From contig JAJEEM010000058.1 in assembly GCA_022820995.1 (NCBI GenBank), forward strand, positions 124,001-188,000: 64,000 bases of DNA. The letters run 5' to 3'. Made by a program: the position numbers and the translations under genes. Below the pieces are notes generated by a model that saw only the letters and a program-made list of their open reading frames with translations, made no database searches and was not told where the DNA came from. Below are positions 1,278 through 54,813 of this stretch, one piece after another. The first letter of the stretch is position 1. Every line of letters starts with the position of its first letter. This stretch comes from Gemmatimonadota bacterium. GTDB lineage: Bacteria; Gemmatimonadota; Gemmatimonadetes; Palauibacterales; Palauibacteraceae.

Positions 1278-1649
1278 GTGCAGCCCGTGCTCCCGTCGCG
1301 GGATGTCGCCGCGGCGATCGGCTTCTACGTCGGGCGGCTCGGCTTCGAACTCGCCTTCGCCGATTCCACCCGCGATCCGGGATACGCCGGACTGAGGCGC
1401 GACGGGATCGAGTTGCACCTGCAGTGGCACGATGCGGAGGAATGGTCCCGCGTCGAGCGCCCCATGCTGCGCTTCGTCGTGCCCGACGTCGAGGCGCTGT
1501 TCGAGGAATACCGCGACCAGGGCGTCTTCCACGAGCGGACGGCGTTGCGGCGGACCCCCTGGGGCACCCGCGAGTTCGCCTTCTACGACCTCGACATGAA
1601 CGGCCTCACCTTCTACCGCGCCCTCGCGGACGGAGAGGCCGGAGCATGA
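1278..1649 (+). CDS. glyoxalase/bleomycin-resistance (VOC) family protein
   Basis: A small vicinal-oxygen-chelate fold protein of about 123 aa. The beta-alpha-beta pattern is visible: an N-terminal LPSRDVAAAIGFYVGRLGF segment, then GIELHLQWHD, then a C-terminal half with WGTREFAFYDLDMNGLTFY, the usual end of bleomycin-resistance-like and glyoxalase-like domains. The start is uncertain. The only in-frame candidates are an ATG at 1161, deep inside korB, and the GTG at 1278; the GTG is chosen because it begins at the fold's first strand, although no well-spaced ribosome binding site is visible. The stop overlaps the next gene (ATGA at 1646). The substrate cannot be predicted; some members bind small toxic compounds. 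Confidence 0.7.
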   Translation: MQPVLPSRDVAAAIGFYVGRLGFELAFADSTRDPGYAGLRRDGIELHLQWHDAEEWSRVERPMLRFVVPDVEALFEEYRDQGVFHERTALRRTPWGTREFAFYDLDMNGLTFYRALADGEAGA

Positions 1650-2674
1650 CCTGGACTGCCCCGGAGCATTGGGTTCGTGTCGAGACGATCGATGCGCACA
1701 CGGAGGGGGAGCCGTTGCGCGTCATCGTGGCGGGCTTTCCGGAGTTGGAGGGGGATACCGTCCTCGCGCGGCGTCGCGTTGCGCGGGCGGAACATGACGA
1801 ACTCCGCCGCGCCCTCATGTGGGAGCCTCGGGGGCACGCGGACATGTACGGCTGTCTCGTGATGCCCCCGGTGAGGCCCGGGTCGGACTTCTCCGTCCTC
1901 TTCATGCACAACGAGGGATACTCGACGATGTGCGGCCACGGGATCATCGGCGTGGCGAAGATCGCCGTCGAAGCCGGCTGGATCGACGGGGCAGGGGACG
2001 AGCGGCCCGTCACGATCGACACGCCCGCTGGTCTCGTGCGCGCCACTGCGGTCCTCGACGGCGAACGGGTCGGGGAGGTCCGGTTCCTCAACGTGCCTTC
2101 CTTCGCGCCGCTGCTGGGGCAGTCCGTGGAGGTGGAGGGGCTGGGTACCGTGTCCTACGACCTCGCCTTCGGCGGCGCCTTCTACGCCTATGTCGATGCC
2201 GACGCGCTCGGGCTTCCGCTCGTGCCCGGCTCGGCCGCCGACCTGATCGACGCGGGGCGCCGGGTCACCCGCGCCGTGTCCTACTCGGCGGGAGACGACA
2301 TCTCCCACCCCGACGACCCCGACCTCGGGTTTCTCTACGGCACCGTGTTCACCGGTCGGGCCGCGGATCCCGCGCACCACTCCCGGCACGTCTGCATCTT
2401 CGCCGATGGGGAACTCGACCGCAGTCCGACCGGGACGGCCGTGAGCGGCCGCCTGGCCATCCTTCGCGCCCGCGGCGAGATGCCCGGGGATGCGGAAATC
2501 GTCGTGGAGAGCATCATCGGAGGCCGGTTCAGCGGCCGGATCGTCGAAACCACGGCCGTCGGCGAGCATCCGGCGGTCGTGCCCGAAGTCGGGGGCCGGG
2601 CCTGGGTGACGGGTCGGCACGAGTTCCTCATCGATCCCGACGACCCGTGGCGGGACGGTTTCCTTGTACGCTGA
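1646..2674 (+). CDS. trans-3-hydroxy-L-proline dehydratase (proline racemase family)
   Basis: A 342-aa member of the proline racemase superfamily. The first catalytic cysteine is present in MCGHG (Cys96). At the second catalytic position, where racemases have DRSPCG, this protein has DRSPTG (Thr262). In characterised family members the Cys/Thr pair marks trans-3-hydroxy-L-proline dehydratase, which removes water to give pyrroline-2-carboxylate, whereas Cys/Cys marks proline or 4-hydroxyproline epimerase. Function is therefore predicted as dehydratase (EC 4.2.1.77 activity), useful for catabolism of collagen-like or antibiotic-derived hydroxyproline. The ATG at 1646 overlaps the preceding stop, and the gene lies 20 bp before the selenoprotein gene. 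Confidence 0.82.
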   Translation: MTWTAPEHWVRVETIDAHTEGEPLRVIVAGFPELEGDTVLARRRVARAEHDELRRALMWEPRGHADMYGCLVMPPVRPGSDFSVLFMHNEGYSTMCGHGIIGVAKIAVEAGWIDGAGDERPVTIDTPAGLVRATAVLDGERVGEVRFLNVPSFAPLLGQSVEVEGLGTVSYDLAFGGAFYAYVDADALGLPLVPGSAADLIDAGRRVTRAVSYSAGDDISHPDDPDLGFLYGTVFTGRAADPAHHSRHVCIFADGELDRSPTGTAVSGRLAILRARGEMPGDAEIVVESIIGGRFSGRIVETTAVGEHPAVVPEVGGRAWVTGRHEFLIDPDDPWRDGFLVR

Positions 2675-2694
2675 GGAGCCGGACAGGAGGCGAA

Positions 2695-3264
2695 ATGCCG
2701 CATATCGAGACGGTAGCTCCCGACGAAGCGACGGGGCTCCTCGCCCGCGAGTACGAGAAGGCCGTCCGCCGCGCGGGGCGCGTTTTCAACGTGATCGGCA
2801 TCCAGAGCCTGAACCCGCCCGTCATGCGCGCCTCGATCCAACTCTACGAAGCGCTGATGCTCGCGCCGGGACCGCTGGGACGGGACGTGCGGGAGATGCT
2901 CGCGACGGTGACCTCGCGCGAACTTGAGTGCTTCTACTGAACGGAAGCGCACGGAGAGGATCTCCGTCAGGCCACCGGAGACGACGAACTGGCCCGCGCG
3001 GTCCGCGCGGACTACCGGACGGCGGAACTCGACGAGAAGACGCGCCGGCTGCTCGACTATGCCGCGGCGATCACCCGCGACCCGACCTCCACCGCGCGGC
3101 GGGACATCGACGAGTTGCGGGAGGTCGGCTGGACGGACGCGCAGATCCTGACGGCGACCGAGGTCGTCGGCTTCTTCAACTACTACGTACGCATGGTCGA
3201 AGCGCTCGGCGTCGAACCGGAGCCCGAAATGGAGCGGGATCCGGAGGTGTGGCCGGACCCCTGA
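2695..3264 (+). CDS. AhpD-like/carboxymuconolactone-decarboxylase-family selenoprotein (Sec at TGA 2938-2940)
   Basis: Read conventionally this gene stops after 81 codons, but the frame continues for another 108 codons past the TGA at 2938-2940 to a real stop at 3262-3264, giving 189 aa. The TGA falls at the second position of the family's redox motif: Cys79-Phe-Tyr-Sec82-Thr-Glu-Ala-His, where AhpD-like 'peroxidase-related' proteins have CxxC followed by TxAH. Sequence on both sides is family-like (DVREMLATVTSRELE before, EVVGFFNYYVRMVEALG after). A hairpin with an AGGAT loop follows the TGA (see separate entry). A strong AGGAGG ribosome binding site precedes ATG 2695. Predicted role: thiol/selenol peroxide reduction. 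The alternative, a nonsense-broken gene, is much less likely given the intact 3' frame. Confidence 0.88.
2951..2967 (+). promoter_or_regulatory. bacterial SECIS hairpin of the AhpD-like selenoprotein
   Basis: Perfect 6-bp stem ACGGAG (2951-2956) with CTCCGT (2962-2967), closing a five-base loop AGGAT (2957-2961). The loop begins 17 bases after the last base of the in-frame TGA (2940), within the distance known for bacterial SECIS elements read by SelB, and carries the GG expected near the loop start. The same loop sequence recurs after the TGA of selD. Being inside the coding sequence it also encodes protein, as is usual in bacteria. Confidence 0.8.
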
Positions 3265-3280
3265 CTCCAATCCTGGTCCG

Positions 3281-5419
3281 CTAGCTTCGGGATCGGCCGC
3301 GGGCCCGCGCGACGCCTGTCGACCGCGTACTGCCGCCGGCGCGGCGAACCGCGCCCCCGGATCCGGAGCTACCGCCCGCGCGTCTGACGCTCCCGCCCGA
3401 CCTCGACGGACCGGGGAGCCGCACCGCCGGCCGAGGCGACCGCGGGGCGGACTGGCGGACCACGGGTCGCCTCGTGGAGGGCGCGCCGCGAAGGATGGGC
3501 CAGGACGGCCTCGCCGTCGTGCGCCGCACCGTCGGCCGCGCCGGGCTGGACCGCGCGGTCGGTCTCGCCGGGTTCCACCGTACCGTGGGCCGGGTCGTCG
3601 CGCCCCCCGACCGGCGAACGGCCGGCCACTCCCGGGCTGTGGCGCGCTGCACGCCGCTACGTTGCACGCCGCTACGTTGCACGCCGCCGCGTTGCGCGCC
3701 GCTGGAACCCGACCGCGTCGTCGGCCGCACGGCCGGCCGTCTCGCAGAGCCTGAGACGTCCCGCGTCACGGGCCGCCGTACCGTCGAACGGGCGTCGTTC
3801 GTCGATGGCGGGGGGCTCGCCCGCTGCACGCCGGGCCGTTCCAGCCGCAGGGCGCGGCCCTCCGCCGACCGCGACGTGACGCGGACGGGTGCCGAGCCCG
3901 CCGTCCGCGAGGGGTCGCTCCGCGCTCCGGCCGTCGCGTCGCGCGGGCTGGCCGACCGGCCGTCGCGGCTCCGCAGGACGACGCGCTCGACCTCCCGCGG
4001 CAGGCTCGTGCCGCGATCGATGAAGCCGTTCGCATCGACCGCCGTTCTCCCGTCGCGCGAGACCGCGCGCCTGAGGCTCGCGAGCGTCTGCGCGGGTCGC
4101 CGCTGCGCCTGCCGCCCCAGCAGGCGGGAGTCCGTCAGCAGCACGCCGCGCTCGACCGCCTTCCGCCCGCGGCCGAAGTCCGAGCCGCCCACCGCGTAGA
4201 AGTGCTGCCGCCGGTGTCCCAGGCGCCCGTGCGGCAGGAACGTCCAGTGCCGGTACCGCCCGAAGCCACCGCCGATGTGCCCGTAGACGCCGAAGTGGAA
4301 GCCCCAGCTGCTCCCGTAATGGTTCCGGTAGTGGCGCCAGTAGTATCCCGAGGGAATCCAGCCCGCGTAGCTCGGGCCCCAGTACCAGTAGACGTGCGCC
4401 ACGGCGAAACGCTGTCCCGGGAACCAGATCCAGCCCCAGTTCGGGTCGAGATCCCAGTATCCGTAGTGGTAGGGCACCCAGCCCCACGGTTCGTAGGAGA
4501 CCCAGAACATTCCGCTGGGCGTGTGCCGCCAGCGGCCGTGCCTGTACGGCGCCCAGCCGGTGGACACGCGCGGCCGCCATGCGACCCCCGCGCCCGCCTG
4601 CACCCACGACCCGTGCCCTCCGAGCGAAGACGCGGCGTAGTGGAGGTCCGGGTCCACGTGCGCGGCGTACTCGCCGCCCGCTTGATCGGCGAGCCCCTGT
4701 CCCCACGCCTCCAGGCGGTCGAGGCCCGGGGCCGCCGCGAAGCGGAGCCGGCCGCCGTCCGCGCCTTCGACGAAGAGGCTCTCGCCCCGCCGCACCTCGG
4801 CGAGTTCCGTCTCCGTCGCGACTTCCGCCACCCCCTCGCGCACGACGACCTCGCTCCGGCGCTCGTCGTCGACGACAATCAGGAAGGAGCCCGCTCCCCG
4901 CGGCCGGATCGTCGCGTTCGGCGTGACGACGGAGGGCCACTCGGGGCCCGGCGGGTCCGCGGCCACGACGAGCTGCAGCGACCCGCGCGAGAGTTCGAGG
5001 ATGGTGGCGGGGTCGCTCGCATCCGCCGAGTTGGCGAGCGCGCGGAAGAGGAGTTCCGCCCGGTCCCCGATCCGGACGATGTTGCCGTCGGCAAGCAGAA
5101 TCTCGACGTGCGATTCGCCGGAGGCGAAGATCCGGTCGCCGACGAGGACGGGTTCGTTCACCGCGAGCTGGATGCGCTCCCGGGTGTCTCCCTGAATGAG
5201 CGTCGCGGAGCCGTCCAGCGCGCGCAGGTACCCGTAGCTGCCGTCGATGCCGCTCTGCGCGATCGCGGCGTCGTAGTCGACCGGGGTCTCCGCCTCCTGC
5301 GCGGAGACCGGGGGCCCGGCGAACGAGACGCCCCACGCCATCCCCACCGCCCAAACCCGCCGCCGGCCCCGCAACCGCCGGGGGGCCTCGGAGTTTTCTG
5401 CCGCCTTTGCGAACCGCAT
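3281..5419 (-). CDS. FecR-domain/DUF6600-like secreted protein with Arg-rich tail
   Basis: A 712-aa exported protein. It has a long basic n-region and a Sec signal peptide with likely cleavage near residue 40 (PVSA-QE). Residues about 60-215 resemble a FecR-type domain (GSATLIQGD, FASGESHVEILLADGNIVRIG, LELSRGSLQL). Residues about 285-370 are very rich in Trp, Tyr and Gly (GWAPYRHGRWRHT, PWGWVPYHYGYW), the signature of the DUF6600-type repeat region. From about residue 430 the protein becomes a low-complexity, highly basic Ser/Arg/Pro/Thr tail with QRSGV repeats. Function is unknown; a cell-envelope or surface role is inferred. It converges on the selenoprotein gene with a 16-bp gap. GTG/ATG alternatives further in would shorten the odd N-terminus. 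Confidence 0.75.
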   Translation of the reverse strand: MRFAKAAENSEAPRRLRGRRRVWAVGMAWGVSFAGPPVSAQEAETPVDYDAAIAQSGIDGSYGYLRALDGSATLIQGDTRERIQLAVNEPVLVGDRIFASGESHVEILLADGNIVRIGDRAELLFRALANSADASDPATILELSRGSLQLVVAADPPGPEWPSVVTPNATIRPRGAGSFLIVVDDERRSEVVVREGVAEVATETELAEVRRGESLFVEGADGGRLRFAAAPGLDRLEAWGQGLADQAGGEYAAHVDPDLHYAASSLGGHGSWVQAGAGVAWRPRVSTGWAPYRHGRWRHTPSGMFWVSYEPWGWVPYHYGYWDLDPNWGWIWFPGQRFAVAHVYWYWGPSYAGWIPSGYYWRHYRNHYGSSWGFHFGVYGHIGGGFGRYRHWTFLPHGRLGHRRQHFYAVGGSDFGRGRKAVERGVLLTDSRLLGRQAQRRPAQTLASLRRAVSRDGRTAVDANGFIDRGTSLPREVERVVLRSRDGRSASPRDATAGARSDPSRTAGSAPVRVTSRSAEGRALRLERPGVQRASPPPSTNDARSTVRRPVTRDVSGSARRPAVRPTTRSGSSGAQRGGVQRSGVQRSGVQRATAREWPAVRRSGGATTRPTVRWNPARPTARSSPARPTVRRTTARPSWPILRGAPSTRRPVVRQSAPRSPRPAVRLPGPSRSGGSVRRAGGSSGSGGAVRRAGGSTRSTGVARARGRSRS
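3648..3707. repeat. four tandem 15-bp repeats in the Arg-rich tail
   Basis: The unit TGCACGCCGCTACGT occurs at 3648-3662 and 3663-3677 exactly, then with substitutions at 3678-3692 and 3693-3707. The period is five codons and on the minus strand encodes QRSGV/QRGGV repeats of the overlapping gene, so copy number can vary without frameshift. Confidence 0.85.
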
Positions 5420-53751: not shown

Positions 53752-54813
53752 ATGAACTCGCCCTCGGCCGAAGCGGCCCGCCTGACCCAGTACTCCCACG
53801 GAGCCGGCTGAGCGTGCAAGCTCGGCCCGGAGGATCTGGGCCGCATCCTGCAGCACGTTCCGCACGTTCCCGATGACCGGCTCCTCGTGGGACTCGAGGG
53901 TCCGGACGACGCGGCGGTGTATCTGCTCGACGACGGGGATGCCATCGTCGCGAGCCTCGACTTCTTCACCCCGCTCGTCGACGATCCCGCGGACTTCGGC
54001 GCCATCGCGGCCGCGAACGCGCTCGGCGATCTGTACGCGATGCGGGCCCGGCCCCTGTTCGCGCTCAACATCCTGGCGGTTCCCGCCGGAACGCTCTCGG
54101 ACGAGACCGTGGGCGCGATCCTCCGCGGCGCCGGGGACGTGTGCCGCGAGGCCGGCATCGCCGTCGCGGGGGGACACTCCATCGACGACGCGGAGCCGAA
54201 GTTCGGACTGGTGGCCATCGGGCTCGGCGATCCCGATCGCCTGTGGAGGAAGGGCGGAGCGCGGCCGGGGGACGCGCTCGTGCTCGGCAAGGCGCTCGGA
54301 ACGGGCGTCGTCACGACGGGGATCAAGCGCGGCGTGACGGACCCCGCCGACCTCCTCGCCGCCGTCGATTCCATGCGGCAACTCAACCGCGAGGCCGCGG
54401 CCGTCCTTTCGGGCTTCGACGTTCACGCGGCCACCGACGTCACCGGCTTCGGGCTCCTCGGCCACCTGCTCGAGATGTGCGGCGCCTCGGACGCGAGCGC
54501 CCGGATCCGCGCTTCGGCGCCGAAACTCCTTCCCGGGGCGCTGCGCCTCGCCCGGGAGGGGTGCGTCCCGGGCGGCACGACCCGTAACCGGGACGCCTAC
54601 GCGCCGCAGGTGCGGTGGGATGACGCCGTCCCCGAGGACGTGCGGGTCCTCCTGTTCGACCCGCAGACATCGGGCGGGCTGCTCGCGGCCGTCCCCGCGC
54701 ACGAGGCGACGCCCGCGTCGTCCGCGCTGGCCGCGGCGGGCTACGCGTCCGCCGTGATCGGGGAGGTCGTCGAGCGGGACGGCGCCGAGGTCGGCGTCGA
54801 GGTCGCACCGTGA
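53752..54813 (+). CDS. selD: selenide, water dikinase (SelD) with selenocysteine at TGA 53809-53811
   Basis: Conventional reading would start at GTG 53887 and lose the active site. From ATG 53752 the frame encodes RLTQYSHGAG then TGA at codon 20, then ACKLGPEDLG: exactly the SelD active site, where E. coli has SHGAGCGCK with catalytic Cys17 and Lys20. The catalytic residue is thus Sec20, with Cys22 and Lys23 following; selenocysteine here is known in several SelD families. The 353-aa product continues with DAAVYLLDDG, GDVCREAGIAVAGGHSIDD and VHAATDVTGFGLLGH (catalytic core). It makes selenophosphate for Sec-tRNA. A SECIS-like hairpin lies at 53823-53843. It lies downstream of the bat operon. 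Confidence 0.94.
53823..53843 (+). promoter_or_regulatory. bacterial SECIS hairpin of selD
   Basis: Eight-pair stem CGGCCCGG (53823-53830) with CTGGGCCG (53836-53843), one pair being G-T, closing the loop AGGAT (53831-53835). The loop begins 20 bases after the last base of the in-frame TGA (53811), the right distance for SelB recognition, and its sequence is identical to the SECIS loop of the other selenoprotein gene in the window. Confidence 0.85.

Follow-up and report, generated by a model that had tools for sequence, protein, structure and literature searches.

This locus raises the question of whether a TGA codon in the middle of an AhpD-like reading frame ends a truncated gene or is decoded as selenocysteine (Sec). 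The frame lies on contig C78 of a 3.7-Mb draft genome in 78 contigs, within the 64,000-nucleotide stretch of DNA that was analyzed as a whole (the window).

2685..2690, + strand: Shine-Dalgarno-like AGGAGG, by direct reading, 4 bases upstream of the ATG
2695..3264, + strand: AhpD-like putative selenoprotein gene, 189 amino acids plus stop, with the TGA at 2938-2940 read as Sec

The frame starts with an ATG at 2695-2697, passes the TGA at codon 82 (2938-2940), and then stays open until a final TGA at 3262-3264; therefore, the read-through protein has 189 amino acids. Codons 83-189 make up 107 sense codons past the in-frame TGA, one fewer than the 108 counted in an earlier note on this DNA, which had proposed a selenoprotein gene here. 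The list of open reading frames stops the gene at the in-frame TGA, and the second half yields no entry of at least 60 amino acids in that frame. When the TGA was read through, the protein matched NCBIfam TIGR01926 (peroxidase-related enzyme, CMD/AhpD group) with 131.7 bits, exceeding the curated cut-off of 81.8 bits, and Pfam CMD with 40.3 bits (cut-off, 23). The TIGR01926 match covers residues 4-178 and therefore spans the TGA. An AlphaFold2 model of the read-through protein (10 sequences) was all-helical with a mean pLDDT of 87; its helices run through residues 80-171, and the means of ten-residue blocks were 83 to 98 for residues 81-160. A promoter and terminator scan of positions 1500-3450 found none.

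Inspection of the letters verified both the position of the TGA and the redox motif Cys79-Phe-Tyr-U82-Thr-Glu-Ala-His86 that had been proposed around it. With Sec at position 82, the active-site pattern reads E67-X11-C79-X2-U82-X3-H86.

2893..2895, + strand: Glu67 codon, first residue of EX11CX2UX3H, placed by codon arithmetic; invariant in 59/59 aligned sequences
2929..2931, + strand: Cys79 codon, the expected resolving Cys; at least 90% conserved among the 59 aligned sequences
2938..2940, + strand: in-frame TGA for putative Sec82, at the alignment column of the second CxxC cysteine; compared in 70 loci
2950..2952, + strand: His86 codon; invariant in 59/59 aligned sequences

The alignment consisted of the window's protein and 58 of the 70 homologous loci, after exclusion of loci with identical proteins, matches shorter than 140 residues, and loci with other stops. 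Position 82 was invariant in all 59 sequences, as were E67 and H86. The proposal had made its case depend on whether homologues conserve Cys or Sec at this column, and no codon other than TGA (51 loci), TGC (17), and TGT (2) was found there; the ratio of 51 to 19 is not a census, because the loci were picked as best matches plus matches in selA-negative genomes, and some genes were counted from two collections. One locus from the same family, located near a contig end (L083 in genome G359), has TGA at the Sec column and GGAPU in place of the motif; the preceding Cys, and therefore the resolving Cys, is missing.

Eight relatives sharing 89-94% protein identity with the window's protein are Gemmatimonadota MAGs, three of which are named Candidatus Palauibacter. 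The same TGA was present in eight named MAG records and in 12 of the 15 other same-genus genomes, two sets that overlap and together give 14 distinct sequences in 21 rows. These 12 genomes contain the gene at E below 1e-80; the exceptions are G089 and G334, with a weaker match only, and G324, with none. The recurrence of the TGA in other assemblies answers the concern that re-sequencing might reveal a different base and argues against a sequencing error. Although the source is a draft assembly of 78 contigs, an assembly or sequencing error in a Cys codon (TGC or TGT) was rejected as having a negligible chance, since a uniform mistake at a single codon is not credible.

The 14 distinct same-genus sequences (564 bases each) contain no other stop, and the TGA and the frame are preserved in 14 of 14. 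Their dN/dS was 0.193 before the TGA and 0.208 after it. This retention of the TGA and the frame across the genus is more than chance would give.

Genes for Sec decoding, whose lack would have spoken against the proposal, were all found in the genome: selA (492 bits), selB (367.7 bits), selC for tRNA-Sec (79.7 bits with Rfam, in agreement with ARAGORN), and selD (371.6 bits). The last of these is located in the window and would provide selenophosphate.

53752..54813, + strand: selD; TIGR00476, 377.8 bits (cut-off, 125)
53824..53842, + strand: predicted hairpin of 8 bp downstream of the selD TGA; its loop GGA is part of AGGAT

The selD gene, too, is interrupted in frame by a TGA, at 53809-53811, where the motif reads GAGUACK. 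The selD hairpin was calculated at -21.1 kcal/mol for 42 nt, and the AGGAT is that of the loop in the AhpD-like gene. The genome also carries a second TIGR01926 gene (paralogue) on contig C20 at 78398-78865 (positions 1498-1968 of locus L025, - strand), which has one in-frame TGA in the motif CRYU (CRYU-IVHH) and shares 39% identity over 157 residues with the window's protein. The hairpin of the paralogue, ACGGAG-AGGGT-CTCCGT, is nearly identical to that of the window's gene. A scan for additional in-frame TGA genes in the window, based on composition, was discarded, as it missed the two known cases.

Two readings in which the TGA does not encode Sec can be weighed against this machinery. Decoding as Trp, or readthrough independent of a SECIS, would suit a frame that is open whatever the TGA encodes, but it was rejected as scarcely conceivable in view of the tRNA-Sec and selA, selB, and selD in the genome, the Cys found in 19 of 19 homologues without TGA (never Trp), and the TGA at 2672-2674 that ends the neighboring gene just past its domain match. 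A true stop, which would leave a pseudogene or an 81-residue fragment, is what the list of open reading frames suggests by ending at the TGA. This reading was also rejected and is very unlikely: the half of the gene past the TGA is under purifying selection similar to that before it, the TGA is the sole interruption of the frame in 14 distinct sequences of the genus, copies with TGA turn up repeatedly in the phylum, and the Sec machinery is present. It is therefore very likely, judging from the sequence comparisons, that residue 82 is Sec.

The earlier note had also described a 6-bp hairpin with loop AGGAT that starts 17 bases after the TGA. The hairpin is present, but 17 bases is the distance to its loop; the stem starts 11 bases past the TGA.

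2951..2967, + strand: SECIS-like hairpin ACGGAG-AGGAT-CTCCGT; stem 2951-2956 paired with 2962-2967, loop 2957-2961

The predicted minimum free energy for 2950-2968 was -9.0 kcal/mol, with the structure drawn as 7 bp and loop GGA. According to the available part of PMC13188914, the bacterial SECIS model has a loop 16-37 nt from the UGA, a stem of 4-16 bp, a loop of 3-9 nt, a G in the first two loop positions, and a minimum free energy of -7.5 or lower. The hairpin, with 6 bp, loop AGGAT, 16 nt between the TGA and the loop, and -9.0 kcal/mol, lies within the limits given there.

Conservation at the nucleotide level was concentrated in this hairpin. In the genus set, codons 85-91 form the gene's only run of at least five invariant codons, and among degenerate codons whose amino acid is invariant, 6 of 6 were kept in the hairpin (codons 86-91) versus 24 of 103 elsewhere (Fisher p 2.9e-4). 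All 36 distinct TGA rows contain a stem of at least 6 bp within SECIS-type limits, versus 6 of 19 Cys rows (p 1.9e-8), where the limits on distance and loop were applied with loops of 4-9 nt and the energy was unused. In 9 equally spaced rows, pairing of the stem held in 54 of 54 cells; one pair was changed on both sides in 2 rows, and covariation of the stem in these rows was weak. The folding energy past codon 82, expressed relative to synonymous recodings, did not separate TGA and Cys rows (mean z, -0.63 and -0.20, respectively; Mann-Whitney p 0.25). An equally long stem was reached by 11% of synonymous recodings of the window's sequence; 23 of 200 shuffles of the 36-nt stretch from the TGA folded as well as the original, and the figure for the paralogue was 71 of 200. 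A search of the whole window with Rfam at the gathering threshold detected a tRNA only and no SECIS. The hairpin loop is at +17 in the window's genus (AGGAT) and in the paralogue. Of the 15 distinct other rows in the window's clade (L048-L065 and L074), 14 have the loop 8 nt further downstream, at +25 (CGGGCC-type); the SECIS thus seems to have changed its place inside a single protein group.

Among 395 genomes of the phylum, 190 had a match at 1e-10. The selA gene was found at 1e-60 in 282 of the 395 genomes and over the cut-off in 280, which suggests that Sec is commonly used in Gemmatimonadota. The best 150 rows of the phylum scan comprised 139 TGA copies (100 genomes) and 11 stop-free copies (10 genomes), and selA was present in 96 of the 100 genomes with a TGA copy versus 1 of the 10 with a stop-free copy (p 1.5e-9). 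Three of the four TGA genomes in these rows that have no selA at 1e-60 contain selB over the cut-off, one of them together with a selA fragment; G212 has a TGA copy and neither selA nor selB. Within the stop-free genomes of the same rows, only G346 has selB over the cut-off, and it has selA as well, yet carries a Cys copy. With weaker matches included, 32 genomes had a match but no selA at 1e-60; 13 of them had a TGA copy and 19 had stop-free copies only. Ten of these 13 have selB over the cut-off, while G121, G212, and G390 do not, and two of the TGA copies in selA-negative genomes also contain TAG. These counts refer to draft genomes and to rows other than the lower-scoring ones of 61 selA-positive genomes; the lower-scoring rows match the selA pattern less neatly.

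All of the best 102 rows (82 genomes) have TGA. In the tree, the window's clade (33 rows; support, 84/96) has Sec in 33 of 33 rows and the 17 Cys rows were placed elsewhere, an outcome favored by the choice of rows according to their similarity to the window. A tblastn search against plasmids returned 127 records, all with less than 60% identity (15 of the 127 listed). Two Cys versions of the paralogue group, L089 (G142) and L092 (G369), both from genus g19, occur in genomes without selA. In the tree, both are neighbors of Sec versions, and the branch leading to L092 is long. Their position would be consistent with a possible replacement of Sec by Cys following loss of the machinery.

The gene directly upstream of the AhpD-like gene was examined as a possible functional partner.

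1646..2674, + strand: probable trans-3-hydroxy-L-proline dehydratase (proline racemase superfamily), by profile match

It ends 20 bases before the ATG of the AhpD-like gene. Its best NCBIfam match was NF045511 (trans-3-hydroxy-L-proline dehydratase), with 373.8 bits, under the cut-off of 540. Both genes had been assigned to one operon as an uncommon pair. A dehydratase-like gene is indeed located ahead of the AhpD-like gene in each of the 8 close relatives, but it was found by tblastn in 0 of 22 other loci (flanks mostly of about 1.5 kb, and of 4 kb for the Chloroflexi locus L034), a set that includes L047 from the same genus and the paralogue L025. Therefore, the dehydratase is not a general partner, and the partnership is weaker than claimed. 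In L026, the single relative in which this region was read, an aquaporin-family gene (2246-2902, other strand) lies between a glyoxalase-like gene and the dehydratase, so that the oxidoreductase genes upstream are cut off from the dehydratase pair. At the position of this aquaporin gene, a gap of about 740-1285 bases occurs in seven further close relatives. Since the window has no such intervening stretch, the closeness of the dehydratase to the upstream 2-oxoacid:ferredoxin oxidoreductase genes in the window is probably accidental. The idea of a single operon is weakened, and the neighbors of the AhpD-like gene vary between groups.

Taken as a whole, the gene is in all probability one for a selenoprotein of the TIGR01926 branch of the CMD/AhpD group, in which SelB and the hairpin would direct Sec to residue 82 and which would serve in housekeeping reduction of peroxides. 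In the proposed mechanism, SelB carrying Sec-tRNA(Sec), all parts being present in the genome, would bind the hairpin, the loop of which is 16 nt from the UGA, and Sec would be inserted at residue 82. There, it would replace the second Cys of CxxC, equivalent to Cys133 of M. tuberculosis AhpD, which we take to be the peroxide-attacking residue, and would be close to Glu67 and His86. By analogy with AhpD, Sec82 is expected to attack the peroxide, and the oxidized selenium would be resolved by Cys79 and then reduced via a cellular thiol donor. Peroxidase chemistry is our best guess on this analogy, and the most likely role would be housekeeping reduction of organic or hydrogen peroxide.

That the substrate is a peroxide is uncertain, because the profile relatives in the PDB include the debrominase Bmp8 (E 1e-11), whose activity is taken from the PDB molecule name, besides sestrin-2. 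A literature search on Bmp8 and debromination found nothing. One alternative combines a Sec-obligate subfamily with reductive dehalogenation in Palauibacter. In it, lineages that lose the Sec machinery would lose the gene and not swap Sec for Cys, because the chemistry would need a selenol, and an AhpD-like protein would carry out, in bacteria, a chemistry matching that of deiodinases. The Sec in every row of the clade, the TGA in all of the best 102 rows, and the Bmp8 relative allow this reading; we nevertheless regard it as improbable. The rows were chosen by their similarity to the window, a choice that favors Sec, and the gene occurs well beyond sponge lineages.

On the other hand, a selenoprotein with a different main job, such as a thiol adaptor of AhpC, a redox sensor, or a reductive dehalogenase, is a possibility to be taken seriously, if rather an unlikely one. 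M. tuberculosis uses AhpD as an adaptor for AhpC, according to the part of PMC3141380 that was available, and Bmp8 and sestrin-2 as well as the differing gene neighbors point in the same direction. Against this, the protein has every one of the AhpD peroxidase positions Glu, Cys, Sec/Cys, and His, and housekeeping peroxide reduction by a Sec-containing AhpD-like protein remains the preferred reading.

Proteins of this kind have been described before. AhpD-like selenoproteins with CxxU appear in work on the Sargasso Sea published in 2005 (PMC1088965) and on GOS published in 2008 (PMC2398784), as far as the available parts of these papers go. In a table within the accessible portion of PMC13188914 (2026), "AhpD-like protein, TIGR01926, CxxU, MCB9421940.1" is listed among known selenoproteins, and the available part of PMC9312934 (2022) places the same protein under COG2128. 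Because CxxU AhpD-like TIGR01926 selenoproteins are already in print, this kind of protein is known, and our finding adds no new kind of selenoprotein. Reference 59 of the 2026 paper is presumably the Sargasso Sea study. The word "Gemmatimonad-" is absent from the available text of PMC13188914, and a literature search judged by titles and the beginnings of abstracts yielded no paper on selenoproteins of Gemmatimonadota. In the literature searched, the spread of the gene across Gemmatimonadota and a window subfamily observed only with Sec are unreported.

Reports of the Palauibacter lineage come from sponges, corals, and marine sediments. In a sponge metagenome, SelA and SelB co-occur in most symbiont bins and are missing from most of the closely related references of these bins, according to the available part of PMC5649159. 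The AhpD-like gene would be one concrete product of the Sec machinery in such a lineage and thus a testable protein, in a case where an ordinary list of open reading frames cuts the gene at the Sec codon.

The closest known counterpart is MCB9421940.1, which, as given in the accessible portion of PMC13188914, shares with the window's protein the TIGR01926 family, the CxxU motif, and a single Sec. NF041238, the AhpD-related CFYUT (seleno)protein family, has the local CFYUT motif and a related CMD domain in common with it. Membership was ruled out, however, since the window's protein reached 49.1 bits against a cut-off of 175 and has 189 residues against about 357 (the model has 357 positions); no match to NF041238 over the cut-off was found in the host genome. 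TIGR00777 (AhpD proper) was not among the matches of the window's protein at E 0.001. The AhpD-like peroxidase-related proteins of PDB entries 2PFX, 2OYO, 6K40, 3C1L, and 2PRR are sequence relatives (E 7.8e-25 to 2.6e-18); where the window's protein would have CxxU, 2PFX and 2OYO have CxxC. The relay residues of M. tuberculosis AhpD are Glu118, Cys130, His132, Cys133, and His137 in the available part of PMC3141380, and the spacing Glu-X11-Cys-X2-Cys/Sec-X3-His is common to both proteins. Since the spacing is the same, residue 82 falls at the place of Cys133, where the M. tuberculosis enzyme has Cys and the window's protein would have Sec.
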